Origin: Blastococcus sp.
GTDB lineage: Bacteria; Actinomycetota; Actinomycetes; Mycobacteriales; Geodermatophilaceae
DNA length: 39,795 nucleotides
Direction of reading: 5' to 3'
NCBI GenBank assembly: GCA_025465355.1
Contig: JAODNN010000065.1
Coordinates: forward strand, 1-39,795
Positions 19,328 to 31,955 of this stretch are shown piece by piece. The notes beneath the pieces were generated by a model, which had not been told where the DNA came from, made no database searches, and was given only the letters and a program-made list of their open reading frames with translations. How positions within the stretch are numbered: the first letter of the stretch is position 1; the number at the start of each line of letters is the position of its first letter. The position numbers were made by a program, and so were the translations under genes.

Positions 19328-19987
19328 TCACCCGGGTTCAGCCCGGCCGAGCCCGGCGGCGCGGGCGCGCGCGCCTGCCTCTCCGCGGTCGGTGGCCTGG
19401 AGCTTGGCCAGGATCGTCGACACGTGGTTGCGCACCGTCTTGTCGCTGAGGAACAGCCGGGAGGCGATCCATGCGTTGCCGCGTCCCTCGGCCACGAACT
19501 GGAGCACCTCGAGCTCGCGGTCGGTGAGCTCCGGGAAGGGGCGCGCGGCCCGGCTGGAGGCAGGTGCGGCGGAGAAGTAGCCGAGCGCCCGCCGTGCGAT
19601 GCCCGCGCCGAAGGTGACGTCCCCGGCGGCGACCGCCCGGATGGACCGCTCGATCTGCTCCTGGTCGGCGCCCTTGACCAGGTAGCCCCGGGCGCCGGCG
19701 CGCATCGCGGTGAACAGCGACTCGTCGTTGTCGAACATGCTCAGCACCAGTGTCGCGACGTGCGGCGCGGTGGTGGCCAGCTCGCGGATCGCCTGCAGCC
19801 CGCCGGTGCCCGGCATGTGCAGGTCCATGAGCACGACGTCCACGCCGTGCTCGACCGCGGCTGCCACGGCGGCGGCGCCGTCGGCCGCCTCGGCCACCAC
19901 CTCGATGTCCGCGGACCCGGCGAGCGCGGCGCGCAGCCCGTGCCGGTAGACGGGGTGGTCGTCGGCGATCAGCACCCGGATCGTCAT
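19328..19987 (-). CDS. NarL/LuxR-family response regulator
   Basis: This 219-residue regulator has a receiver domain (acidic D9-D10, phosphoacceptor D55 in VVLMDLHMPGTGG, switch Ser in LVLSMFD, Lys in YLVKG). A linker containing Ser/Ala/Pro leads to a LuxR-type helix-turn-helix, LTDRELEVLQFVAEGRGNAW to SDKTVRNHVSTILAKLQATD. It binds DNA as a phosphorylated dimer. Its ATG overlaps the kinase stop as ATGA (19987-19984), so it is the cognate partner of that kinase. The promoter must lie upstream of the membrane-protein gene at about 22740-22911. Regulated genes are unknown, and autoregulation of the operon is likely but not shown. Confidence 0.92.
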   Translation of the reverse strand: MTIRVLIADDHPVYRHGLRAALAGSADIEVVAEAADGAAAVAAAVEHGVDVVLMDLHMPGTGGLQAIRELATTAPHVATLVLSMFDNDESLFTAMRAGARGYLVKGADQEQIERSIRAVAAGDVTFGAGIARRALGYFSAAPASSRAARPFPELTDRELEVLQFVAEGRGNAWIASRLFLSDKTVRNHVSTILAKLQATDRGEAGARARAAGLGRAEPG

Positions 19988-22041
19988 GCGGTGCCTCCCC
20001 GCGGGATGGTCACGTGCACGGTCGTGCCGCCGGCCGCGCCCGGCGTGATCACGCAGGTGCCGCCGAGCTCGGTGGCGCGCTCGGTCATCGACCGCAGCCC
20101 CAGGCCGCCGGGCCCCGGGGGCCGCACGTGGCGCGCTGCGGCCAGGCCGACCCCGTCGTCCTCGACGGTCAGGGTCAGCGGGTCGGTGGTGTCGTCCAGC
20201 CGGACCACGCAGGAGGACGCCGTCGCGTGCCGGGCCACGTTGGTCACCGCCTCCAGCACGATCCGGTAGATCGCCACCTCGGTCTCCGCCGGGAGCGGGC
20301 CGAGCGGGCGCGCAGTCTCCACCCGCACCACCAGGGCGCCCTCGCTGCGCACGGTCACCGTCTCCGCGTACTGCAGCAGCGCCTCCTGCAGCCCGAGCTG
20401 TTCGAGTGTGGTCGGCCGCAGGTCGGCCACCAGCCGCTTCACGTCGGCCAGGCTGTCGTCGACCTCCCGCTGCAGGTGCTCGAGCAGCTCCGCGCCGTTC
20501 CCGGTCGCCGACCGGCGGGCCGCCCCGAGCCCCAGGGCGACGCCGGCGAGGGTCGGGCCCAGCCCGTCGTGCAGGTCCCTCCGGATCCGGTGTCGCTCCT
20601 CCTCGCGCGCCAACGCGAGCTGGTCGCGGGAGCGGCGCAGTTGGTGGGTCAGCCGCACGGCGTCCGTCGCGACCGCGACCTGCCGGGCGAAGCCTTCGAG
20701 CAGCCGCTGGTCGCCCGGGTCCAGGAACCGGCGGGTACCCGGCAATCCGACGGTGAGGATCCCGACCTCGCTACCCGCGTGCCACAGCGGCAGGTGCACC
20801 GTGCCGGCCGTCGGCGTCCCGTGCTCGGCGGCCGGCAGCGGCTCCCCGACCAGGGTGACCGCTGCGTAGGGCAGCCGCAGCGACGTCGCAACCGTGGAGA
20901 CCACGGCCGGGAGCACCTCGTCCGGTGCCATCGTCGCCTCCAGCCGCTCGCCCAGGCCCAGCACCGCGCCGTACGGGTCCCGGCGCTCGCCGTACAGCAG
21001 CCGGTCCACCCTCCGCTGCACGGAGTGGCGCACCGGGGCCAGCCCGAGGGCGACGACCACCGCGGCGATGACCGCTCCGGAGGTCGGGCCACCGATCGCC
21101 CGCGACGCCAGCCCGGCGATCAGCCCGAAGACCGCCGCGACCAGCGTGGTGAGGACGCCATAGACGAGGGTCCGGTTGAGCAGTCGGTCGCCGTCGAACA
21201 GCCCCTCGCGCACCATCGCCACCCCGAGCGCGACGGGGAACAGCCCGGTGGCGATGGTCGGGATCACCACGTTCACCGGCAGGGCCTGGCAGACGAAGAC
21301 GACGACGAAGGCGACGAAGAACCAGGCCAGCCGACGGCGCTCGGGACCGCTCGTGCGGGCCATCCGCACCGCGATGCCGACCGCCCCGGCCACCCCGCAG
21401 GCCGCCGCCACACCGGCCGAGGTGAGCAGCGCCGTCCGCAGCACGTCCTGCACCGGTGGCCCCGGAGCCAGCGGGCTGCGCTGGCCGGTGGCGAGGTCAC
21501 CCGGATCGAGGAACGGCAGGGCAACGGTCACCAGCGCCGCCACCGCGGCGCCGACCCAGACGACCGGCCGCCATCGCGGTGACGCGGGGCGGCCGTCGGG
21601 GAAGAGCGGCGAGATGAGCCCCGCGGCCAGGACGAAGCCGGGCATCCAGACGACGTCGGCGACGACCGCCGCCGCGCCCGCTGCGGGGAGGGGCGGCTGG
21701 CGTACCGACCAGGCGGTCCCCAGCAGTCCCACGGCCTGGGTCAGTCCGATGGCGACGAAGATCCAGGCCAGCGCGTGCCGTGGTTCCCGCGTCAGGACGA
21801 ACGCCCCGACGGCGGGAAACGTGACCCCGATGACCGCGCCGATGATCGAATGCCCGTCGACCAGCTCGCGCCACGACTGGTTCCCGGCGGCGACGAGCAG
21901 CGCCACCACGACCGTGACGGCGCACCCGATGGCGAGGGCTACGGCGAGGCGGGGCAGGCCACGCGGTCGCGCCGGCACGCCGGACGGCGCGGCCGGGGAC
22001 ACCCCCACGGTCGCGCCGTCCGGATGCGTGTTGGCGCTCAC
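19984..22041 (-). CDS. NarL-type sensor histidine kinase with multi-pass N-terminus and GAF-like domain
   Basis: This 685-residue kinase starts at GTG 22041, forming a GTGA overlap with the upstream gene. About seven to nine hydrophobic segments fill residues 20-320 and form a membrane sensor without a large external loop. A GAF-like region follows (LGERLEATMAPDEVLPAVVS to RRFLDPGDQRLLEGFARQVA). The HisKA_3 domain EEERHRIRRDLHDGLGPTLA supplies the phosphoaccepting His. The HATPase_c domain shows AVTNVARHA (N box), VEDDGVGLA and PGGLGLRSMTERATELGG. It should phosphorylate the overlapping NarL-type regulator. The long extension of the open frame upstream of 22041 lies inside the preceding gene and is spurious. 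The signal sensed is unknown. Confidence 0.88.
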   Translation of the reverse strand: MSANTHPDGATVGVSPAAPSGVPARPRGLPRLAVALAIGCAVTVVVALLVAAGNQSWRELVDGHSIIGAVIGVTFPAVGAFVLTREPRHALAWIFVAIGLTQAVGLLGTAWSVRQPPLPAAGAAAVVADVVWMPGFVLAAGLISPLFPDGRPASPRWRPVVWVGAAVAALVTVALPFLDPGDLATGQRSPLAPGPPVQDVLRTALLTSAGVAAACGVAGAVGIAVRMARTSGPERRRLAWFFVAFVVVFVCQALPVNVVIPTIATGLFPVALGVAMVREGLFDGDRLLNRTLVYGVLTTLVAAVFGLIAGLASRAIGGPTSGAVIAAVVVALGLAPVRHSVQRRVDRLLYGERRDPYGAVLGLGERLEATMAPDEVLPAVVSTVATSLRLPYAAVTLVGEPLPAAEHGTPTAGTVHLPLWHAGSEVGILTVGLPGTRRFLDPGDQRLLEGFARQVAVATDAVRLTHQLRRSRDQLALAREEERHRIRRDLHDGLGPTLAGVALGLGAARRSATGNGAELLEHLQREVDDSLADVKRLVADLRPTTLEQLGLQEALLQYAETVTVRSEGALVVRVETARPLGPLPAETEVAIYRIVLEAVTNVARHATASSCVVRLDDTTDPLTLTVEDDGVGLAAARHVRPPGPGGLGLRSMTERATELGGTCVITPGAAGGTTVHVTIPRGGTA

Positions 22042-22739
22042 CGCACCACCGGGGCGGCGTGCGGGTCCGGGGCCGGAGCCGAACGCAGCACGTCGACCGC
22101 CATCCACAGCAGCCCGACGAACAGGAACGGGCTCCCCGGGACGACGCCGATCAGCTGGGCGAGCTGGAACAGCAGGACGAGGACGATCGCCGTCCGCGAG
22201 ACGGATCCGGACCGCCAGAGCGCGATCATCGCGACCACGATGCCGAGGAACGCCCCGATCATGAACATCGGCATGAACAGGTAGCCGGGCAGTCCCATGG
22301 CGGTAGGCGAGCTCAACGAGTCGGCGACCCGGTCGACCGGGAAAGCACCCTGGCGCACCAGCGCGAACTGCGTCAGCTCGACGCCTTCGAGCACCCACTG
22401 CATGGCGAGGCCGATGGCGAGCAGCACGGCGCCGGCCACCGCCAGCCTGGGCGAGCGGCGCCGGGAGAGCAGGAACCACGCGAGCGCCGTCCCGGCGATG
22501 AACAGGGTGCCCAGCACGTCGGCGGTGATGCCGATGCCGGCGGCACCGGGGTGGTCGTGCATGTAGGCGACGTGGTCACTCCCGTCCTTGCCGAAGCCGA
22601 TCAGGTCGCCGACGGTCCACAGCGCACCGCCGACCGCCAAGGTTGTGGCAGCGGCAACACGTCCTGCGGGGCTCCAGCCCGTGGCCGGACTGCGCGGGGG
22701 CGCGGCGGCGGGCCGCGTGCTGTCGGTGGTCGTGCTCAT
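22038..22739 (-). CDS. Membrane protein of unknown function, first gene of the sensor operon
   Basis: This is a 233-residue protein with a Thr/Pro/Ala-rich N-terminus and about six transmembrane segments (for example GRVAAATTLAVGGALWTVGD, TADVLGTLFIAGTALAWFLL, LAVAGAVLLAIGLAMQWVL, LPGYLFMPMFMIGAFLGIVV and TAIVLVLLFQLAQLIGVVPG). No catalytic motif was recognised. GGAGGAG just upstream of ATG 22739 fixes the start. Its stop overlaps the kinase start by four bases, so it is translationally coupled to the NarL-type two-component pair and may be an accessory sensor or a target of the system. That role is inference from position. Confidence 0.75.
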   Translation of the reverse strand: MSTTTDSTRPAAAPPRSPATGWSPAGRVAAATTLAVGGALWTVGDLIGFGKDGSDHVAYMHDHPGAAGIGITADVLGTLFIAGTALAWFLLSRRRSPRLAVAGAVLLAIGLAMQWVLEGVELTQFALVRQGAFPVDRVADSLSSPTAMGLPGYLFMPMFMIGAFLGIVVAMIALWRSGSVSRTAIVLVLLFQLAQLIGVVPGSPFLFVGLLWMAVDVLRSAPAPDPHAAPVVR

Positions 22740-23285: not shown

Positions 23286-24716
23286 GTGGACGCTGGGCCT
23301 CTCGAGGAACGCCCACGCAGGCGGCGTGGTGGCCGGCCTCGTGGTGTGGGTGCGCTCCCCGGCCGGCTCGGGGTGCGGCTCCGGGCGACCGTCGCCGCTG
23401 TCGCGGTCGTCGCGATCGCGCTCATCCTGTCGGCGGTGACGCTCGTCATCCTCGTCGGGCGGACGGTGGGGGACTCGATCACCGCGACCGTGCTCACCCA
23501 GGCGGAGGACGCCGCCGCCGAGATGCAGAACGGGGTCGCCGGCGTGGCGGTCGCCGGCGCCGAGAACGGCGTCCGCGTCCAGGTGGTGCGGGGCAACGGG
23601 GTGCTCGCCGCCAGCCGCTCGCTGGTCGGGCGCCCGCCGCTGAGCTCGGCGAAGCCGGCTCCCGGCGAAACGGTCGTCCAGACGCTCGACGGGGCGCGGC
23701 TGGGTCGGCCGGGCGTCATGTACCGGGTGGCGGTGGTCGGTCTCCAGCCCCGGATCGGCGCCGACCGCGTCATCGCGCTGCAGTCGCTCACCGTCGCCCG
23801 CGACGCCCAGGACGTGGTCGTCAGGCTCGCGTCCATCGGCGTCCCTTTCCTGCTGCTCGTCGTGGGCGCGGCCACCTATGTCTCGGTCGGGCGCGCCCTG
23901 CGGCCGGTGGAGGCGATCCGTGCTCGCACCGCCGAGATCGGTGCCGCCGACCTCTCGGCGCGGGTGCCCGTTCCGTCGTCCGACGACGAGGTGTCGGCGC
24001 TGGCCCTCACCATGAACGGCATGCTCGGGCGGCTGGAGGCGGCCGTGGCGACGCAGCGGGCGTTCGTCTCCGATGCCGGGCACGAGATGCGGAGTCCGCT
24101 GGCCGCCATCCGCACCGAGGTGGAGGTGGCCCAGCGAGCCGGGCTGAGCGACCGCACGCTGGCGGACCTGCTCGGCGAGACGGGGCGCCTGGAGCGGCTG
24201 GTAGCCGACCTCCTGCTGCTCGCCCGGGCCGACGAGGGGGCGATGACCCTGCACCGCGCCGACGTCGACCTCGATGACCTGCTGGACGACGAACGCGCGC
24301 GGCTGCGGAACCAGCCTGACCTCACCGTCACCGCGTCGGTCGCTCCCGCTCGGGTCGTCGGCGACCGGTCGGCGCTGGCGCGGGTCGTCCGCAACCTGGT
24401 TGACAACGCCGCCCGGCACGCGGCCGGACGGATCCACCTGGCCAGCGGCACCGACGGGGGACGGGCCTGGGTCGAGGTCACCGACGACGGCCCCGGCATC
24501 CCGATGGAGGACCGGGCGCGGGTGTTCGAGCGGTTCGTCCGGCTCGATGACGCGCGGGCGCGGGAAGACGGCGGCAGTGGACTCGGTCTCGCGATCGTCC
24601 GCGAGCTGGTCCGGGCCTCGGGTGGTTCAGTCCGGCTCGACGGGGCGGGCCCCCTTCCTGGTGCCCACGTGCGGGTCGAGCTGCCGGCTCAGCCCTCGTC
24701 GGGGGCGAATACGTAG
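23286..24716 (+). CDS. OmpR-type sensor histidine kinase
   Basis: This 476-residue kinase has an Arg-rich N-terminus, TM1 at about 34-58 (VAAVAVVAIALILSAVTLVI), an extracytoplasmic sensor of about 120 residues and TM2 near 178-200 (IGVPFLLLVVGAATYV). A HAMP domain follows (RALRPVEAIRARTAEIGAAD). The HisKA domain contains SDAGHEMRSPLAAIRTE with phosphoaccepting H266. HATPase_c motifs are RNLVDNAARHA, VTDDGPGIP and GSGLGLAIVREL. GTG 23286 follows a -10 box directly. Its last 28 bases overlap the 3' end of the convergent response-regulator gene, which is the nearest OmpR-type partner. Antiparallel placement of a cognate kinase and regulator is uncommon. The pairing is inferred from adjacency. 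Confidence 0.9.
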   Translation: MDAGPLEERPRRRRGGRPRGVGALPGRLGVRLRATVAAVAVVAIALILSAVTLVILVGRTVGDSITATVLTQAEDAAAEMQNGVAGVAVAGAENGVRVQVVRGNGVLAASRSLVGRPPLSSAKPAPGETVVQTLDGARLGRPGVMYRVAVVGLQPRIGADRVIALQSLTVARDAQDVVVRLASIGVPFLLLVVGAATYVSVGRALRPVEAIRARTAEIGAADLSARVPVPSSDDEVSALALTMNGMLGRLEAAVATQRAFVSDAGHEMRSPLAAIRTEVEVAQRAGLSDRTLADLLGETGRLERLVADLLLLARADEGAMTLHRADVDLDDLLDDERARLRNQPDLTVTASVAPARVVGDRSALARVVRNLVDNAARHAAGRIHLASGTDGGRAWVEVTDDGPGIPMEDRARVFERFVRLDDARAREDGGSGLGLAIVRELVRASGGSVRLDGAGPLPGAHVRVELPAQPSSGANT

Positions 24717-25381
24717 CCCGCACCGCGAACGGTCTGGATGCTCGACCGCCCGAACGGGGTGTCGATCTTGCGGCGCAGGTAGCTGATGTAGATCTCGACG
24801 ATGTTGACGTCACCGTCGAACGCGGTGTCCCAGACGGCGTGCAGGATCGCGGTCTTGCTCAGCACCATGTCGCGATTGCGCACCAGGTGCTCCAGGACGG
24901 CGAACTCGCGCGGGGTGAGCGAGATGTCGGTTCCCGCCCGAGAGACCCGGTGGCGCGCAGGGTCGATCTCGAGATCCCCGGCCCGCAGGATCGAGGGACG
25001 CGTCGCGGCGCCGCGGCGGGCCAGCGCGCGCAATCTGGCCACGAGGACGACGAACGAGAACGGCTTGGTGAGGTAGTCGTCGGCGCCCAGGTCGAAGGCA
25101 TCGGCCTCGTCGTACTCGCCGTCCTTCGCGGTGAGCATCAGGACCGGGGTGCCGAGGTCGGCCTCGCGGAGCTGCTCGAGCACCCGATAGCCGTGCAGCC
25201 CCGGCAGCATGATGTCCAGCACGACGACGTCGTAGTGGCCACGCATCGCGGCGTCCCGGCCGGTCAGGCCGTCGTGGGCCAGGTCCGCAGCGATGCCCTC
25301 GGAGCGCAGCCCCCGGGCGAGGGACTGCGCCAGTCGCACCTCGTCATCAACGATCAGCACCCGCACGCTGTCGATCGTCAC
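24689..25381 (-). CDS. OmpR/PhoB-family response regulator
   Basis: This is a 230-residue regulator if started at GTG 25381. The receiver has D12-D13, phosphoacceptor D56 (VVVLDIMLPGLHG), Thr in VLMLTAKD and Lys in DYLTKPFSF. The C-terminal winged helix includes LTPREFAVLEHLVRNRDMVL, VWDTAFDGDVNIVEIYISYL and TVRGAGYVFAPDEG. GGAGG lies almost against GTG 25381, which is too close for ideal spacing. GTG 25366 would give a 225-residue protein but places the Shine-Dalgarno too far away, so the start is uncertain by five residues. It lies 89 bases downstream of the COG4705-type membrane protein on the same strand and meets the histidine kinase tail-to-tail with a 28-base overlap. Confidence 0.9.
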   Translation of the reverse strand: MTIDSVRVLIVDDEVRLAQSLARGLRSEGIAADLAHDGLTGRDAAMRGHYDVVVLDIMLPGLHGYRVLEQLREADLGTPVLMLTAKDGEYDEADAFDLGADDYLTKPFSFVVLVARLRALARRGAATRPSILRAGDLEIDPARHRVSRAGTDISLTPREFAVLEHLVRNRDMVLSKTAILHAVWDTAFDGDVNIVEIYISYLRRKIDTPFGRSSIQTVRGAGYVFAPDEG

Positions 25382-25470
25382 ACCTCCGGGACCCCTCGGG
25401 GCCGGTTCGCCGCGGCCCAACCTGCTGCCCACGGCGTCCCGGCCCCGTTCAGTGAAGAAGATCGTCCTGC

Positions 25471-26286
25471 TCAGCGGGTGAGGACGTCCTCGCCGTGCGC
25501 GGCCACGACGGGCGGCGTCTGGTCGCGACGGCTCACGGCAAGGTAGGCGACGACGGCCAGGATCACGACGAGGAAGCCCACGCTGGTGACGGTGGTACCG
25601 AGGCCGAGACCGCCGTCGGCCTTCGCCTGGGAGAAGCCGTCCCCGAGCGAGGCGCCGAGCGGACGGGTCAGGATGTAGGCGATCCAGAAGCACAGCACCG
25701 GGCCGGCGCGGAAGACCAGGTGGCTGACGGTGACCGCAGCGATGAGCGCCGCGACGAGCAGCGCCGTGGCCCAGTAGCCGAGGCCGAACTTCTCGTCCAC
25801 GAGGTCGCCGGCAGCGGTGCCCAGGGCGAACGTGAACAGGATCGCCAGCCAGTAGAAGGCCTCGCGGCGCGCGGTGACGATGGTGTGGATGGAGAGCGTC
25901 CGCTCCCGGGCCCACCAGGCCGCGAAGGTGAGGGCCAGGGCCAGGGCGAAGACGACGGTGCTGGTGACCAGGGAGACCCCGAGCCCGTCGGTGAGGTTGT
26001 CGGTCACCAGGGTCCCGACCACGCTGATCAGCACGACGGTGAGCCAGTAGATGCCGGGTACGTAGCGCCGGGTCCGGAACTGGATCAGGAGCACGATCAG
26101 GAAGACGGCACCCATGACCAGGGTCGTGCCGCGCAGGCCCAGGCCCATGTTCGTGGCCAGGAAATCAGCGGCGGTCTCTCCGACGGTCGTCGCGAGGATC
26201 TTGATGACCCAGAAGAAGAGAGTGACCTCGGGAACCTTGTTGAGGAGCGTGCGCGCGTTCCGCGCGGCGGCAGAGGTGTCGGTCAT
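25471..26286 (-). CDS. COG4705-type membrane protein with four W-x9-G-x4-D repeats
   Basis: This is a 271-residue multi-pass membrane protein. Four segments begin with Trp and carry Gly at +10 and Asp at +15: W26/G36/D41 (GETAADFL), W81/G91/D96 (GTLVTDNL), W146/G156/D161 (GTAAGDLV), W201/G211/D216 (GASLGDGF). Each is followed after a few residues by a GLG. Asp-to-Asp distances are 55, 65 and 55, as expected if a two-segment unit was duplicated and the pair duplicated again. NKVPEVTLFFWVIKILATT marks the COG4705 family, which to my knowledge has no assigned function. An acidic ring in a membrane protein suggests ion or metal passage, but that is inference. ATG 26286 has GAGGAGC-like purines only on the opposite side, so the ribosome site is weak. 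It is divergent from one OmpR-type pair and upstream of another regulator. Confidence 0.85.
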   Translation of the reverse strand: MTDTSAAARNARTLLNKVPEVTLFFWVIKILATTVGETAADFLATNMGLGLRGTTLVMGAVFLIVLLIQFRTRRYVPGIYWLTVVLISVVGTLVTDNLTDGLGVSLVTSTVVFALALALTFAAWWARERTLSIHTIVTARREAFYWLAILFTFALGTAAGDLVDEKFGLGYWATALLVAALIAAVTVSHLVFRAGPVLCFWIAYILTRPLGASLGDGFSQAKADGGLGLGTTVTSVGFLVVILAVVAYLAVSRRDQTPPVVAAHGEDVLTR

Positions 26287-26309: not shown

Positions 26310-26327
26310 CCTGAACACCGCCTGAAC
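26310..26327 (-). promoter_or_regulatory. Direct repeat GTTCAGG, 11-base period, probable OmpR-type operator
   Basis: On minus the sequence reads GTTCAGGCGGTGTTCAGG: two identical heptamers 11 bases apart (26321-26327 and 26310-26316). Direct repeats with one helical turn spacing are the usual binding site of head-to-tail OmpR/PhoB dimers. It lies in the 85-base gap between the divergent COG4705-type gene and the response regulator at 26372. Either flanking OmpR-type regulator could bind it. Confidence 0.55.
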
Positions 26328-26371
26328 GCGTCTGCGCACGTTGCGTGCGTAGACACGGCACCATCGGCGAT

Positions 26372-27052
26372 ATGGACGACGCCGCGGTACTGCTCGTCGA
26401 GGACGACGCGACCCTGCGCACCTCGGTGGCCAGGGGGCTGCGCGACCACGGATTGCAGGTCACGACGGCCGCGGACGGCACAGCGGCCCTCGCGGCGGCG
26501 GGGCCCGGGCCGGACACCCGGTTCTCGGCGGTGGTCCTGGACATCGGGCTGCCCGACTCCGACGGGCGTGATGTATGTCATGCCCTGCGGGCACGCGGCA
26601 TCCACGTCCCCGTGTTGTTCCTCACCGCCCGCGACCAGTTGCACGACGTGCTCTCGGGGTTCGCCGCCGGTGGCGACGACCATGTGGCCAAGCCGGTCCA
26701 CGTGAGCGAGTTGGTGGCGCGGCTCCGGGCCCTGATCCGGCGCAACGCGGCCCGGCCGGCCGTGGTGCCGACCGGTCTGCGCCTGGACCCGTCCGGTCAC
26801 GGGCTCGCCGGTCCGGCTGGGCACCAGGACCTCACCCCCACCGAGTACCGCTTGCTGGCCGCGCTGATGGGCGCGCCGGGTGAGGTGGTGCGGCGGCGGG
26901 CCCTCGCGCAGGCCGGCTGGCCGGACGGCGCGATCGTCGCCGACAACACCCTGGACCAGTACCTGGCGCGGCTGCGCCGCAAGCTCGCCGCGGCGGGGGA
27001 GGAGGGCCGGTCCATCGTCACGGTCCACGGCGTCGGCTACCGGTTCACATGA
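26372..27052 (+). CDS. OmpR/PhoB-family response regulator
   Basis: This 226-residue regulator starts at ATG 26372. The receiver domain has acidic residues in LLVEDDATLR, phosphoacceptor D57 in AVVLDIGLPDSDG, Thr in VLFLTARD and the conserved Lys in DDHVAKPVHVSEL. The winged-helix domain shows LTPTEYRLLAALMGAPGEVV, ADNTLDQYLARLRRKL and TVHGVGYRFT. It is 28 bases upstream of a histidine kinase on the same strand, giving a standard two-component operon. The promoter region is shared with the divergent COG4705-type gene and contains an 11-base-period direct repeat likely bound by this or the neighbouring regulator. No clear Shine-Dalgarno was seen. Confidence 0.92.
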   Translation: MDDAAVLLVEDDATLRTSVARGLRDHGLQVTTAADGTAALAAAGPGPDTRFSAVVLDIGLPDSDGRDVCHALRARGIHVPVLFLTARDQLHDVLSGFAAGGDDHVAKPVHVSELVARLRALIRRNAARPAVVPTGLRLDPSGHGLAGPAGHQDLTPTEYRLLAALMGAPGEVVRRRALAQAGWPDGAIVADNTLDQYLARLRRKLAAAGEEGRSIVTVHGVGYRFT

Positions 27053-27080
27053 TCGGACACCTCATCGGGCAAGTGGCGCC

Positions 27081-28418
27081 GTGAGCTCCGGGAGCCTGCG
27101 CAGCCGGCTGTCGTGGTCGGCCTCGCTCGTCGTCGCGCTGTGGGTACTCGTCGTGTCGATCGCCGCCAACCTGCTGCTCTCCGCCGTGCTGGCGCGGCAG
27201 GCCGACAGCGTGCTCCAGGCGCGCGCCGAGGCGACCGCTGCCACCCTCCAGGTGGCGTCCGACGGCCGGGTGACCGTGGACGACTCCCGCAGCGACCGCG
27301 CCCTCGACGTCGGCACCTGGATCCTCTCCGGAGACAGCACGGTGGTGGAGCGGCCGACCGGCAGTTCCCCGGCTCTCGACCGGCGGGCGACCGCGTTGGC
27401 AGGGAACGGCCTGCGAGCTGTCGACAGCGGCCTCGCCGACCCCGTCCGGTTGCTTGCGTTGCCGGTCCTCGATCACGGCCGGCAGGTGGCCACAGTTGTC
27501 ACCAGCACGTCGCTCGCCCCGTACCGGCAGGTCGAGCGACTGACGCTGTTCGGGACGATCGTCGCGGCGATGCTGCTCCTGGTCGTCGTCCATCTGGTGC
27601 TGCGGGTCAACGTGTCGCGGGCGCTGCGGCCGGTGCAGCAGATGAGTGCCCAGGCCGCCCGGTGGAGCGCCGACGAGATCGACCGCCGGTTCGGGCACCG
27701 CCGACGGCCTGCGGAGCTGGCGGAGCTGGCCGAGACCCTGGACGGCGTCCTGAACCGGCTCTCGGCGGTCGTCCGGCACGAGCAGCACCTCTCGGCCGAA
27801 CTGTCCCACGAGCTGCGGACGCCACTGGCCCGGCTCCAGGCCGAGCTCGACTGGCTCGCCGACCGACCCAGGAACGCCGCTGAGGTCACCCGCTCGCACG
27901 CCGCCATGGGCGAGGCCACGGGCGCCATGGGGGAGATCCTCGAGACGCTCATGACCACTGCCCGTTCCGGCGTCGCCGTCGCTCCGGGCCGCTGCGCGCC
28001 GGCAACCGTCGTCGCCCGGGCGGTGGAGCGGTTGGGCCCCGCGCACGCCGACCTGGATGTCACCGTCGACATCCCCTCGGATCTCGTCGCCGGGGTCGAC
28101 GCCCCCGTGCTCGACCGGCTGCTGGGTCCACTCCTGGACAACGCCGTCCGGTACGCCTCGCGGGGGGTGACCATCACGGCTCGGTCCTGCGAGGCGGGCG
28201 TGGAACTGGAGGTCGCGGACGACGGCCCGGGGGTGCCGGCGGAGCTGGCCGACCATGTGTTCGAGGCCGGCCGGCGGGGAGACCCCGCCGACGGCCACGA
28301 CGGCGCCGGGCTGGGCCTCGCGCTGGCCGCGCGGCTGGCGACGGCGGCTCGCGGTTCTCTCACGCTGCGGCCGGGTGGCCCGGGGGCGTCCTTCGTCGTC
28401 CGGCTCCCGGCCGGCTGA
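27081..28418 (+). CDS. OmpR-type sensor histidine kinase
   Basis: This is a 445-residue kinase with GTG 27081 as start. TM1 is at about 14-36 (LVVALWVLVVSIAANLLLSA) and an external sensor of about 100 residues follows. TM2 is near 156-175 (FGTIVAAMLLLVVVHLVL), followed by HAMP (VSRALRPVQQMSAQAARWSA). The phosphoaccepting H243 is in LSAELSHELRTPLARLQAEL. The ATP domain has LLDNAVRYA, VADDGPGVP and DGAGLGLALAARLA. The dimer/acceptor helix and all ATP-binding boxes are intact. It is the partner of the regulator 28 bases upstream. It ends 11 bases before the convergent TerC gene. The sensed signal is unknown, but location beside TerC genes and a COG4705-type protein suggests membrane or metal stress. 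Confidence 0.9.
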   Translation: MSSGSLRSRLSWSASLVVALWVLVVSIAANLLLSAVLARQADSVLQARAEATAATLQVASDGRVTVDDSRSDRALDVGTWILSGDSTVVERPTGSSPALDRRATALAGNGLRAVDSGLADPVRLLALPVLDHGRQVATVVTSTSLAPYRQVERLTLFGTIVAAMLLLVVVHLVLRVNVSRALRPVQQMSAQAARWSADEIDRRFGHRRRPAELAELAETLDGVLNRLSAVVRHEQHLSAELSHELRTPLARLQAELDWLADRPRNAAEVTRSHAAMGEATGAMGEILETLMTTARSGVAVAPGRCAPATVVARAVERLGPAHADLDVTVDIPSDLVAGVDAPVLDRLLGPLLDNAVRYASRGVTITARSCEAGVELEVADDGPGVPAELADHVFEAGRRGDPADGHDGAGLGLALAARLATAARGSLTLRPGGPGASFVVRLPAG

Positions 28419-28429
28419 ACCCGGAGCGG

Positions 28430-29407
28430 TCACTGGCTCCGGCGGAGGTCCAGCCGGGTCTTGCCCAGGCTCGCGGCGGTCGTGAGGCTCAGCGTGCCGA
28501 GGATGAAGGCCAGAGACGTCACGATCCCGATCTGGGGGAGAGGCATCGGGCCCAGCGTGTCGATGTGCGAGCCGTGCAGGGCCTCGATGAGCAGCTTGAC
28601 GCCGATGAAGGCGAGGATCACCGACAAGCCGATGTTGAGGTAGATGATCCGCTCCAGCAGCCCGCCGATGAGGAAGTAGAGCTGGCGGAGTCCGAGCAGG
28701 GCGAAGGCGTTCGCCGTCAGGACGATGTACGGGTCCTGGGTCAGGCCGAAGATTGCGGGGATCGAGTCGAGGGCGAACACGACGTTGGCGATGCCGATCG
28801 CGCTGATGACGATGACGAGGGGCGTGACCATTCGCCGCCCGGCCACGCGCGCGGTCAGGGCGGTTCCGGCGTAGCCGTCGGTGAGCGGCAGGACGCGCCG
28901 CAGCCCCCGCAGCAGCCTGCCCTCCTGGAAGTCGTCCTCGTCGTTCGTGCCCTCGAGCGCCAGGCGGATGGCGGTGTACACCAGGAACGCGCCGAAGATG
29001 TAGAACACCCAGCTCGCCGCCGCGATGGCGGCGGCGCCGGCGGCGATGAACGCCCCGCGCAGGAACATCGACACGACGATGCCGATGTAGAGCACCTTGT
29101 CGACGGCCAGCGAGGGCACCGCGAACCGCGACATGATGATGATGAAGACGAAGAGGTTGTCGACGCTCAGGCTGTATTCGGTGATGTAGCCGGCGACGAA
29201 TTCGCCGCCCGTGGTGCCCGCCCTGAACACGAAAAGGCCGATCGCGAACAGGGCCGCCAGACCGACGTAGAAGATCACCCATGACGTGGCCTGCCGGATG
29301 GACACGGCGGTGTCGCGGCGGGCGATCACGACCAGGTCGAGCACCACGATGGCCAGGAAACCGATCGCCGTCAGGGCCCAGACCAGGGGCGAGACGGCAG
29401 TGAACAC
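28430..29407 (-). CDS. TerC-family integral membrane protein, copy 1
   Basis: This is a 325-residue protein with about nine membrane segments. TerC signatures are YITEYSLSVDNLFVFIIIM with D83, FLRGAFIAAGAAAI, VFYIFGAFLVYTAIRLALEG and NVVFALDSIPAIFGLTQDPY. The family includes manganese exporters and tellurium-resistance proteins, and the acidic residues in the two DN/DS motifs are thought to line the metal path. GTG 29407 is chosen over the ATG eight codons upstream because CGGAGG lies eight bases before it. The leader carries a yybP-ykoY riboswitch and a hairpin between aptamer and Shine-Dalgarno. It is divergent from a second TerC gene with the same type of switch. Confidence 0.92.
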   Translation of the reverse strand: MFTAVSPLVWALTAIGFLAIVVLDLVVIARRDTAVSIRQATSWVIFYVGLAALFAIGLFVFRAGTTGGEFVAGYITEYSLSVDNLFVFIIIMSRFAVPSLAVDKVLYIGIVVSMFLRGAFIAAGAAAIAAASWVFYIFGAFLVYTAIRLALEGTNDEDDFQEGRLLRGLRRVLPLTDGYAGTALTARVAGRRMVTPLVIVISAIGIANVVFALDSIPAIFGLTQDPYIVLTANAFALLGLRQLYFLIGGLLERIIYLNIGLSVILAFIGVKLLIEALHGSHIDTLGPMPLPQIGIVTSLAFILGTLSLTTAASLGKTRLDLRRSQ

Positions 29408-29422
29408 GGGGAGCCTCCGAAC

Positions 29423-29438
29423 GCCGTCCATCGACGGC
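29423..29438 (-). repeat. Expression-platform hairpin in the TerC copy 1 leader
   Basis: A perfect 6-bp stem GCCGTC-GATG-GACGGC lies between the aptamer (ends 29443) and the Shine-Dalgarno (29414-29418). It brings the P1 3' strand CCUUCGGA (29449-29442) next to the ribosome site UUCGGAGG (29421-29414). These can pair over eight positions including two G-U pairs. Confidence 0.6.
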
Positions 29439-29765: not shown

Positions 29766-29804
29766 GGTACTGACTCATGCCAGTTGCCGGAGGTATATCG
29801 CCGT

Positions 29805-30821
29805 ATGGACGTCCCGTTCTTCGTCTGGGCTCTCACGATCGCCGCGATCGTCGGGATGCTGATCTTCGATTTCGTCGGGCACGCGCGCACGCCGCACGCG
29901 CCGACGCTGCGTGAGTCCGCGATCTGGTCGGCGGTCTACGTCGGACTCGCGATCGTCTTCGGCCTCCTCGTCCTGTGGTTCTCCGGGGCCGGCTACGCAG
30001 GCGAGTACTTCGCGGGCTACGTGACCGAGAAGAGTCTCTCGGTCGACAACCTCTTCGTCTTCGTGCTGATCTTTGCGGCCTTCGCCGTGCCGCGGCAGGT
30101 GCAGCAGAAGGTGCTGCTGTTCGGCATCACGTTCGCGCTCGGGCTGCGGACGGTCTTCATCCTGGTCGGCGCGGCCGCCATCGAGAACTTCAGCTGGGTC
30201 TTCTACCTGTTCGGCGCGATCCTCATCTACACGGCATGGGCCCAGGCGCGCAGCGGCGGGCACAGCGGCGGCGACGACTACCAGGAGAACGCCGTCCTGC
30301 GGTTCACCCGGAAGGTCCTGCCGACGACGCCGGAGTACCACTCCGACCGGATGACGGTGAAGGTCGACGGGAAGCGCTTCATCACGCCGCTGGCCATCGC
30401 GCTGATCGCGATCGGTGTCGCGGACGTCATCTTCGCCGTCGACTCCATACCGGCGATCTTCGGGCTCACCCAGGAGACCTACCTGGTGTTCGCGGCCAAC
30501 GCGTTCTCCCTGCTCGGCCTGCGGCAGCTGTTCTTCCTCATCGACGGGCTGCTCGACCGGCTGGTCTACCTGGCCTACGGGCTGGCCGTGATCCTCGGCT
30601 TCATCGGCGCCAAGCTCGTGATCCACGCCCTGCACACCAACGAGCTGCCCTTCATCAACGGTGGCGAGCACGTCACGGCGATCCCCGAGATCTCGACCGC
30701 GCTCTCCCTCGCCGTGATCGTCGGAACCCTGGTCGTGACGACCGTGGCCAGCCTGGCCAAGGGCCGCGCCGACCGCGGCGCCGCCGTCGACGAACCCCGC
30801 GACGTGACGCCTCGCGCCTGA
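29805..30821 (+). CDS. TerC-family integral membrane protein, copy 2
   Basis: This 338-residue protein starts at ATG 29805 with GGAGG 11 bases upstream. It shows the TerC plan: an N-terminal segment MDVPFFVWALTIAAIVGML, then VTEKSLSVDNLFVFVLIFAA with D81, TFALGLRTVFILVGAAAIEN, VFYLFGAILIYTAW and DVIFAVDSIPAIFGLTQETY, and a C-terminal motif LPFINGGEHVTAIPEI. About nine transmembrane segments are present. A role in manganese or other metal export is likely from the family and from the riboswitch in its leader. The protein is closer in layout to copy 3 (shared FINGGEH motif) than to the divergent copy 1. A terminator-like hairpin and a 9-base tandem repeat follow before copy 3. Confidence 0.93.
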   Translation: MDVPFFVWALTIAAIVGMLIFDFVGHARTPHAPTLRESAIWSAVYVGLAIVFGLLVLWFSGAGYAGEYFAGYVTEKSLSVDNLFVFVLIFAAFAVPRQVQQKVLLFGITFALGLRTVFILVGAAAIENFSWVFYLFGAILIYTAWAQARSGGHSGGDDYQENAVLRFTRKVLPTTPEYHSDRMTVKVDGKRFITPLAIALIAIGVADVIFAVDSIPAIFGLTQETYLVFAANAFSLLGLRQLFFLIDGLLDRLVYLAYGLAVILGFIGAKLVIHALHTNELPFINGGEHVTAIPEISTALSLAVIVGTLVVTTVASLAKGRADRGAAVDEPRDVTPRA

Positions 30822-30892: not shown

Positions 30893-30938
30893 CCGCAGCC
30901 GCCAGCCGCTGCTCGAACCCGTCCGTGAGGTGGAAACC

Positions 30939-31955
30939 GTGGACCTGCCCGCGTGGTTCGCGATCGCGACCTTCGTGGGGCTCACCGCCCTGCTGCTCGC
31001 CGACCTCGCGCTCGTCGCCCGCCGCCCGCACGAGCCCTCGGTCAAGGAGTCCGCCCTCTGGGTGAGCTTCTACGTGGCCCTTGCCCTGATCTTCGGCCTC
31101 GTCCTGCTCGTCGTGGCGAACAGGACGTCCGCGACGGAGTTCTATGCGGGGTGGCTGACCGAGTACAGCCTGTCGGTCGACAACCTGTTCGTCTTCGTGA
31201 TCATCATGGCCCGCTTCCGGGTGCCGCGGCACCTGCAGCAGCACGCGCTGATGGTGGGCATCCTCATCGCACTGGTTCTCCGCGGCATGTTCATCCTTGC
31301 CGGAGCCACGCTGATCGAACGGTTCACCTGGCTCTTCTACTTCTTCGGCGCCTTCCTGATCTACACGGCGATCAACCTGGTCCGTTCCCGCGGGGAGGAC
31401 GAGGACTACGAGGAGAACGCCTTCATCCGGCGGATGCGCTCGGTGCTGCCGATCAGCTCGGAATTCCAGGGCAGCCGGATGCGGCTGGTCGAGAACGGCA
31501 GGAAGATCTGGACGCCGCTGATCGTCGTCTTCCTCGCCCTGGGGACGACGGACCTCATCTTCGCGCTCGACAGCATCCCGGCGATCTTCGGGCTCACGCG
31601 GGAGCCGTTCATCGTCTTCACCGCGAACGTGTTCGCGCTGATGGGCCTGCGCCAGCTCTACTTCCTGCTGGGCGGGCTCCTCGAGCGGCTGGTCTACCTC
31701 TCGCTGGGCCTGGCGGTGATCCTCGGGTTCATCGGCGGAAAGCTCGTGATGGAGGCGCTGCACGAGAACTCGCTGCCGTTCATCAACGGCGGGGAGCACA
31801 TCACCGCGGTGCCCGGCATTCCGATCTGGCTGTCGCTGACGATCATCCTGGGGGTGCTGATCGTCGCCACCGTCGCGAGCCTGGTGAAGACGCGCGGCGG
31901 CACGACGCCGGCGGCCGAGGCCACCGACACTGCCCCACGGCGGGCCGACGGCTGA
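30939..31955 (+). CDS. TerC-family integral membrane protein, copy 3
   Basis: This is a 338-residue protein if GTG 30939 is used. GAGGTGG seven bases upstream favours it over GTG 30930. Signatures are WLTEYSLSVDNLFVFVIIMA with D81, VLRGMFILAGATLIERF, LFYFFGAFLIYTAINLV and DLIFALDSIPAIFGLTREPF, ending SLPFINGGEHITAVPGI. About nine membrane segments are present. It follows copy 2 by 117 bases holding a hairpin and tandem repeat. I see no yybP-ykoY element there, so its expression depends on read-through or on a separate promoter. Three TerC paralogues within 3.5 kb suggest specialised or additive metal export. Confidence 0.92.
   Translation: MDLPAWFAIATFVGLTALLLADLALVARRPHEPSVKESALWVSFYVALALIFGLVLLVVANRTSATEFYAGWLTEYSLSVDNLFVFVIIMARFRVPRHLQQHALMVGILIALVLRGMFILAGATLIERFTWLFYFFGAFLIYTAINLVRSRGEDEDYEENAFIRRMRSVLPISSEFQGSRMRLVENGRKIWTPLIVVFLALGTTDLIFALDSIPAIFGLTREPFIVFTANVFALMGLRQLYFLLGGLLERLVYLSLGLAVILGFIGGKLVMEALHENSLPFINGGEHITAVPGIPIWLSLTIILGVLIVATVASLVKTRGGTTPAAEATDTAPRRADG

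Follow-up and report, generated by a model that had tools for sequence, protein, structure and literature searches.

Membrane proteins of the DUF347 family are recognised by the Pfam profile PF03988, labelled 'Repeat of Unknown Function', in which each repeat has a conserved tryptophan and two membrane helices. No measured activity of a DUF347 protein was found in the literature on the family and on the mmf cluster, in the part of it that was surveyed, and in this respect the original prediction's statement that the family has no described function holds for biochemistry. It goes too far in that a link to metals is already in print in the portions of the sources covered here. Work on Frankia put DUF347 forward as a potential new transporter of metals (PMC4531530), and a later review restates its link to lead (PMC11534348). 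In Cupriavidus metallidurans, Pb and Zn upregulate the mmf cluster, which includes mmfC1 and mmfC2 (PMC12029693), and likewise Tn6048, the transposon that carries the cluster (PMC2864759); mmfC1 and mmfC2 have been named as DUF347 proteins (PMC4914505).

Judged by the names of the records, DUF347 is spread over many bacterial phyla and an archaeon. It occurs in 254 plasmid records, sometimes adjoining metal genes; its plasmid neighbours include rcnR, rcnA and pcoS, and a plasmid-borne gene order resembling the mmf cluster was seen around DUF347. The distribution is patchy, with matches in 13 of 198 genomes of the phylum, 59 of 197 genomes of the class (the source genome being in both sets) and none of 14 controls. 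In some genomes the repeat matches number as many as 16, corresponding to about four genes.

The window analysed here is the whole of a 39,795-nucleotide stretch of Blastococcus sp. DNA, and its DUF347 gene occupies 25471-26286 on the minus strand. The open reading frame of 271 codons is read from 26286 to 25471, and reading the same interval on the plus strand gives a frame unrelated to the DUF347 protein. The PF03988 profile matches the product over four stretches with 206.7 bits (cut-off 28.2, E 4.1e-62), each single repeat scoring above the curated cut-off, and weak matches to NicO and Kup fell under their cut-offs. On the minus strand the Pfam matches lie at 26062-26217 (repeat 1; W26/G36/D41), 25897-26052 (repeat 2; W81/G91/D96), 25711-25857 (repeat 3; W146/G156/D161) and 25525-25689 (repeat 4; W201/G211/D216). 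As predicted originally, these are four W-x9-G-x4-D units with all twelve residues in place, and the Asp to Asp steps are 55, 65 and 55. Comparison of the window protein with the family revealed no difference, a conserved Trp and Asp and two membrane helices being found in every repeat. The protein is a typical, if strikingly regular, representative of a family of membrane proteins that is known yet uncharacterised. Because PF03988 matches it four times, the fourfold repeat is already a defining trait of the DUF347 family.

Two lesser regularities had been put forward alongside the main pattern. A GLG does follow each repeat (at 48, 101, 168 and 226/228) but the registers differ, and in repeats 1-3 it is the last Gly alone that is well kept in the 128-row alignment described below (G50 in 113, G103 in 117 and G170 in 124 of the 128 rows). 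The F-R pairs said to match between the linkers of the two halves start at 70 and 192, 11 and 9 residues ahead of the Trp that follows, and just 30 of the 128 rows have Arg at residue 193. With the pair poorly kept and its distance to the next Trp unequal, the linker argument was dropped.

The likeness to MmfC1 and MmfC2 of Tn6048 extends to an adjoining two-component pair, as far as the covered portions of the published descriptions go. The mmf cluster differs in having a PepSY protein, an undecaprenyl-diphosphatase, a second DUF347 protein and EamA; the 12 neighbouring window ORFs scanned gave no match to PepSY, undecaprenyl-diphosphatase or EamA, and the window has a single DUF347 gene. The source genome does have a second DUF347 gene, on a different contig. 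A second DUF347 ORF was present in 20 of the 80 relative loci (the best 80 of 594), including L055, L061, L069, L072, L092 and L105; in these six it follows the first in the same orientation, an arrangement shared with mmfC1 and mmfC2.

Conservation was counted in 126 relatives, made up of 79 proteins from a pattern scan (at least 50% identity; best 80 of 594 kept), 19 second ORFs from the same loci, 22 proteins found with the Pfam profile, which came solely from the loci of the best profile matches, and 6 ORFs on plasmids (four records). The 128 rows are completed by the window protein and by a row more than 97% identical to it, taken as its own copy. The patterns of the scan themselves contained W201, G156 and D161 and for this reason conservation was recounted on the differently collected sets. 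Open frames of less than 200 residues, matches of less than 180 residues and ORFs with X were excluded, which removed a broken copy in genome G076 as well as the weak matches of G163 and G044. All four Trp and all four Asp were present in 126 of 126 relatives, whose identity to the window protein ranged from 78% down to 33%, so that the family alignment bears out their conservation. The Trp-Asp distance was 15 residues in 512 of 512 repeat instances in the 128 rows. K29, E37, T92, T157 and R208 were kept as fully as the Trp and Asp residues in the 126 relatives, and residue 91 was Ser once, within the 22 profile-found relatives. The Asp-Asp steps were 55/65/55 in 83 of the 128 rows and variable in the others, therefore the linker lengths are not strict.

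An earlier count on 102 rows had given one exception each at W26 and D41 (a gap), K29 (Q), E37 (D) and W81 (G). The DUF347 gene of locus L091 has its match split across two frames and may account for these exceptions. Within the helices, none of the columns with at least 90% conservation is a His, Cys or Met. Histidine is a common zinc ligand; the only conserved one, H134, is in a loop (90 of 102 rows). In genome G076 the DUF347 gene (contig C1, 2577649-2578304; loci L018 and L030) is spread across three frames and one of its matches contains a TGA; from its sequence it is apparently a broken copy.

Judged by their sequences, the four repeats are homologous and their regularity is far past chance. 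Profile-profile comparison gave scores of 45.4 for repeats 1 and 2, 41.2 for 1 and 3, 38.0 for 1 and 4, 53.1 for 2 and 3, 22.4 for 2 and 4, and 40.2 for 3 and 4. Five of the six pairs thus fall at 38.0-53.1, against 19.1 for the best of 96 decoys (6 reversed and 90 column shuffles preserving hydropathy class). The two halves of the protein also align over 100 columns (E 2.3e-10), W26 falling onto W146 and W81 onto W201. Along with the eight modelled helices described below, these results support internal repeats of a two-helix unit. In a tree built with the 68 repeats of 17 proteins every repeat forms its own clade (support 93, 95, 79 and 100), therefore the duplications predate the divergence of those 17 proteins. 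The best tree joins repeat 1 with repeat 4 (support 70). The two rounds of duplication had been proposed in a particular order, and this is unsupported because repeats 2 and 4 are the weakest pair and the three possible orders fit the tree alike (AU p 0.45, 0.45 and 0.50).

The AlphaFold2 model, made with 75 sequences (pLDDT 92.5, pTM 0.89), has eight helices, two per repeat, at 23-46, 50-71, 77-101, 106-128, 139-167, 171-192, 196-219 and 231-252, and an extra short helix at 6-15. The covered part of the Frankia paper gives six membrane segments (PMC4531530) as against these eight. In the model the first helix of each repeat continues for 3 to 6 residues beyond the Asp. Lys and Arg average 1.1 to 3.2 in the inter-repeat stretches and ends versus 0.2 to 0.6 within the repeats, the stretches compared being of different lengths. 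Under the positive-inside rule, positively charged stretches face the cytoplasm. The Lys and Arg between the repeats would thus place both termini in the cytoplasm and all four Asp in the outer, non-cytoplasmic half of parallel helices. The idea that the Asp residues occupy equivalent places is upheld by the four modelled helices, whose common orientation is deduced from the loop charges. The first helices of the repeats (A helices) have a mean conservation of 0.60-0.66 versus 0.43-0.49 for the second (B helices); in the A helices the conserved face lies 19-36 degrees from Trp and 79-96 degrees from Asp, and the moments are small.

A PDB fold search with the model found nothing at E of 0.001 or below, the best match being an iron transporter with E 0.36 and an rmsd of 10.8, and the query TM was at most 0.34 among the best 50 of 234 matches. 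A fold search of viral models likewise gave none at E of 0.001 or below (best E 0.81), and a PDB sequence search gave no match at E up to 1. It is conceivable, though doubtful, that a single chain with four parallel two-helix repeats round one axis, a cation ring of the four invariant Asp and its own two-component pair acting via a dedicated box would constitute a new membrane-transport fold.

The genes on either side of DUF347 encode two-component systems. An OmpR-type response regulator (26345-27052, plus strand; Pfam) is divergent to DUF347, and a sensor histidine kinase (26880-28418, plus strand, as the ORF is listed, with the true start inside) is its likely partner. The closest counterparts of this pair, also divergent to DUF347, are in the Modestobacter and Blastococcus loci L036-L038, where the regulator scores 328-340 bits and the kinase 465-493 bits. 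Downstream of DUF347 on the same strand, the C-terminal ~230 codons of the ORF at 24689-25915 (minus) encode a second OmpR-type response regulator, with which a second histidine kinase (23286-24716, plus; Pfam) is convergent. Within 3 kb of DUF347, kinase matches and regulator matches were each found in 54 of the 80 relative loci (best 80 of 594). Both were found in 52 and neither in 24 of the 80, some of the contigs being short. In the 59 loci with full flanks the pair was centred within 2.5 kb in 38, as compared to 3 at 2.5-5 kb. With both partners this close in 52 of the 80 loci, the two-component genes can be regarded as real context.

DUF347 and the divergent pair are separated by an interval that contains GTTCAGGCGGTGTTCAGG at 26310-26327 (minus), a tandem box GTTCAGG-N4-GTTCAGG with 23 bases from it to the DUF347 start codon. 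An 11-base tandem is usual for the sites of OmpR-type regulators, and on pattern the box is a possible candidate for the binding site of the divergent response regulator. It is the sole exact copy in the 4.9 Mb genome assembly (195 contigs, 95% complete). Allowing one mismatch gave 2 sites in the assembly versus 1 for a backward control pattern; allowing two gave 1 site in the window with 0.16 expected, and 14 of 100 shuffles had at least 1 site. A CAGG-N7-CAGG core is found upstream of DUF347 in 11 of the 80 relative loci (best 80 of 594), L070 being a poor likeness, a count made without a chance control and with a core picked after some loci were seen. Of the 81 upstream stretches, 13 contain tandem repeats of at least 7 bases, of several differing sequences, versus 4.7 expected. 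The nearby regulator is closer to the 24689 regulator of the window in 41 of 54 loci and to the divergent 26345 one in 13, therefore the box and the divergent pair belong to a subset of loci.

The likeliest reading, put forward tentatively and at rather less than an even chance, is that metal stress would induce the protein, which would serve as an inner-membrane transporter or channel carrying a divalent cation. The kinase and regulator encoded divergently from it would turn the DUF347 gene on by binding the tandem GTTCAGG box, and the protein would then move metal, most likely outwards. The four A helices, which would all run from the cytoplasm to the outside because every repeat has two helices, may build an inner core. 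In its outer half a ring of oxygen ligands would be formed by the four Asp together with E37 and the Thr residues found at the corresponding +11 places, and the four Trp would make up a belt close to the cytoplasmic end. This reading is favoured because of the invariance of Trp and Asp, the conservation of the A helices, the kinase, regulator and box, the metal genes among the plasmid neighbours and, in the portions of the literature covered, the induction by Pb and Zn. Against it, the helices have no conserved His, Cys or Met, K29 and R208 are no less invariant than the Asp residues, and the conserved A-helix face is nearer Trp than Asp, with small moments. In addition, 24 of the 80 loci (best 80 of 594) lack both a kinase and a regulator match within 3 kb, and the periplasmic part of the window kinase shows no evident metal-binding cluster when inspected by eye. 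Cation-efflux proteins account for at least 2 of 109 scanned neighbours (among the best 25 of 90 families), and some neighbours are phosphatases or lipid genes.

This neighbour tally covers the nearest neighbours alone, other than kinases and regulators, 109 of 114 being scanned for families and five long ones (L039, L078, L068, L049 and L054) left out. It is a rough tally as the composition-based gene caller misses GC-rich genes, including the window's own kinases and regulators. Given the invariant Trp and Asp, a confident model with no solved relative found and a box next to what is probably a dedicated regulator, the family is directly testable.

Transport of some other substrate (proton, alkali metal, small solute or metabolite), by a transporter or channel whose gene would be induced by envelope stress in general, is unlikely. 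The conserved acidic and basic residues would suit proton-coupled transport equally well, and the family is enriched in cold-adapted dinoflagellates and polar algae, which in the covered portions of those reports have no evident metal setting (PMC6249206, PMC9756366), but the reported inducers, in the literature as surveyed, are all metals.

Quite unlikely is a lipid-linked role, in which the protein would act on undecaprenyl phosphate or phospholipid, as a flippase or an accessory, and would restore the envelope after metal damage. Undecaprenyl-diphosphatase and PepSY genes adjoin DUF347 on a Rhodoferax plasmid, a PAP2 phosphatase is near it in Rhizobium and a histidine phosphatase adjoins it in Cronobacter. 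VTT-domain proteins make up at least 5, PEMT at least 3 and MGDG synthase at least 3 of the 109 scanned neighbours (best 25 of 90 families), and the invariant Arg and Lys could hold a phosphate. Such lipid genes are nevertheless a small share of the scanned neighbours, and four invariant helix Asp point to a cation more than to a phosphate.

It is very unlikely that the protein transports nothing and assists the two-component system in the membrane as a co-sensor or kinase regulator: the kinase and regulator are within 3 kb in 52 of the 80 loci (best 80 of 594) and concentrated within 2.5 kb (38 versus 3 of 59), and PepSY accounts for at least 9 of the 109 scanned neighbours (best 25 of 90 families), but a docking partner needs less than eight helices with invariant charges, neither partner is within 3 kb in 24 of the 80 loci, and some genomes have the up to 16 repeat matches noted above.

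The neighbouring TerC genes had been invoked as further evidence of a cation or metal role. They were ruled out as such, TerC being absent within 3 kb of DUF347 in all 80 relative loci (best 80 of 594), where one TerC query gave no match anywhere at E up to 1e-12. Proteins of the TerC/Alx family are multi-helix membrane proteins like DUF347 and three Alx-type genes share its window, but the DUF347 protein gave no match to TerC PF03741 at E up to 1 and is not a TerC member. The three genes are clustered at 28430-29431 (minus), 29784-30821 (plus) and 30930-31955 (plus), and a search of the genome for TerC found no match beyond them. On the other side of the DUF347 gene, the second kinase (23286-24716, plus) and second regulator (24689-25915, minus) overlap at their ends in a tail-to-tail arrangement that is unusual for a two-component pair. 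A third two-component pair, of the LuxR/HisKA_3 type, is present in the window at 19331-19987 (minus) and 19984-22479 (minus).
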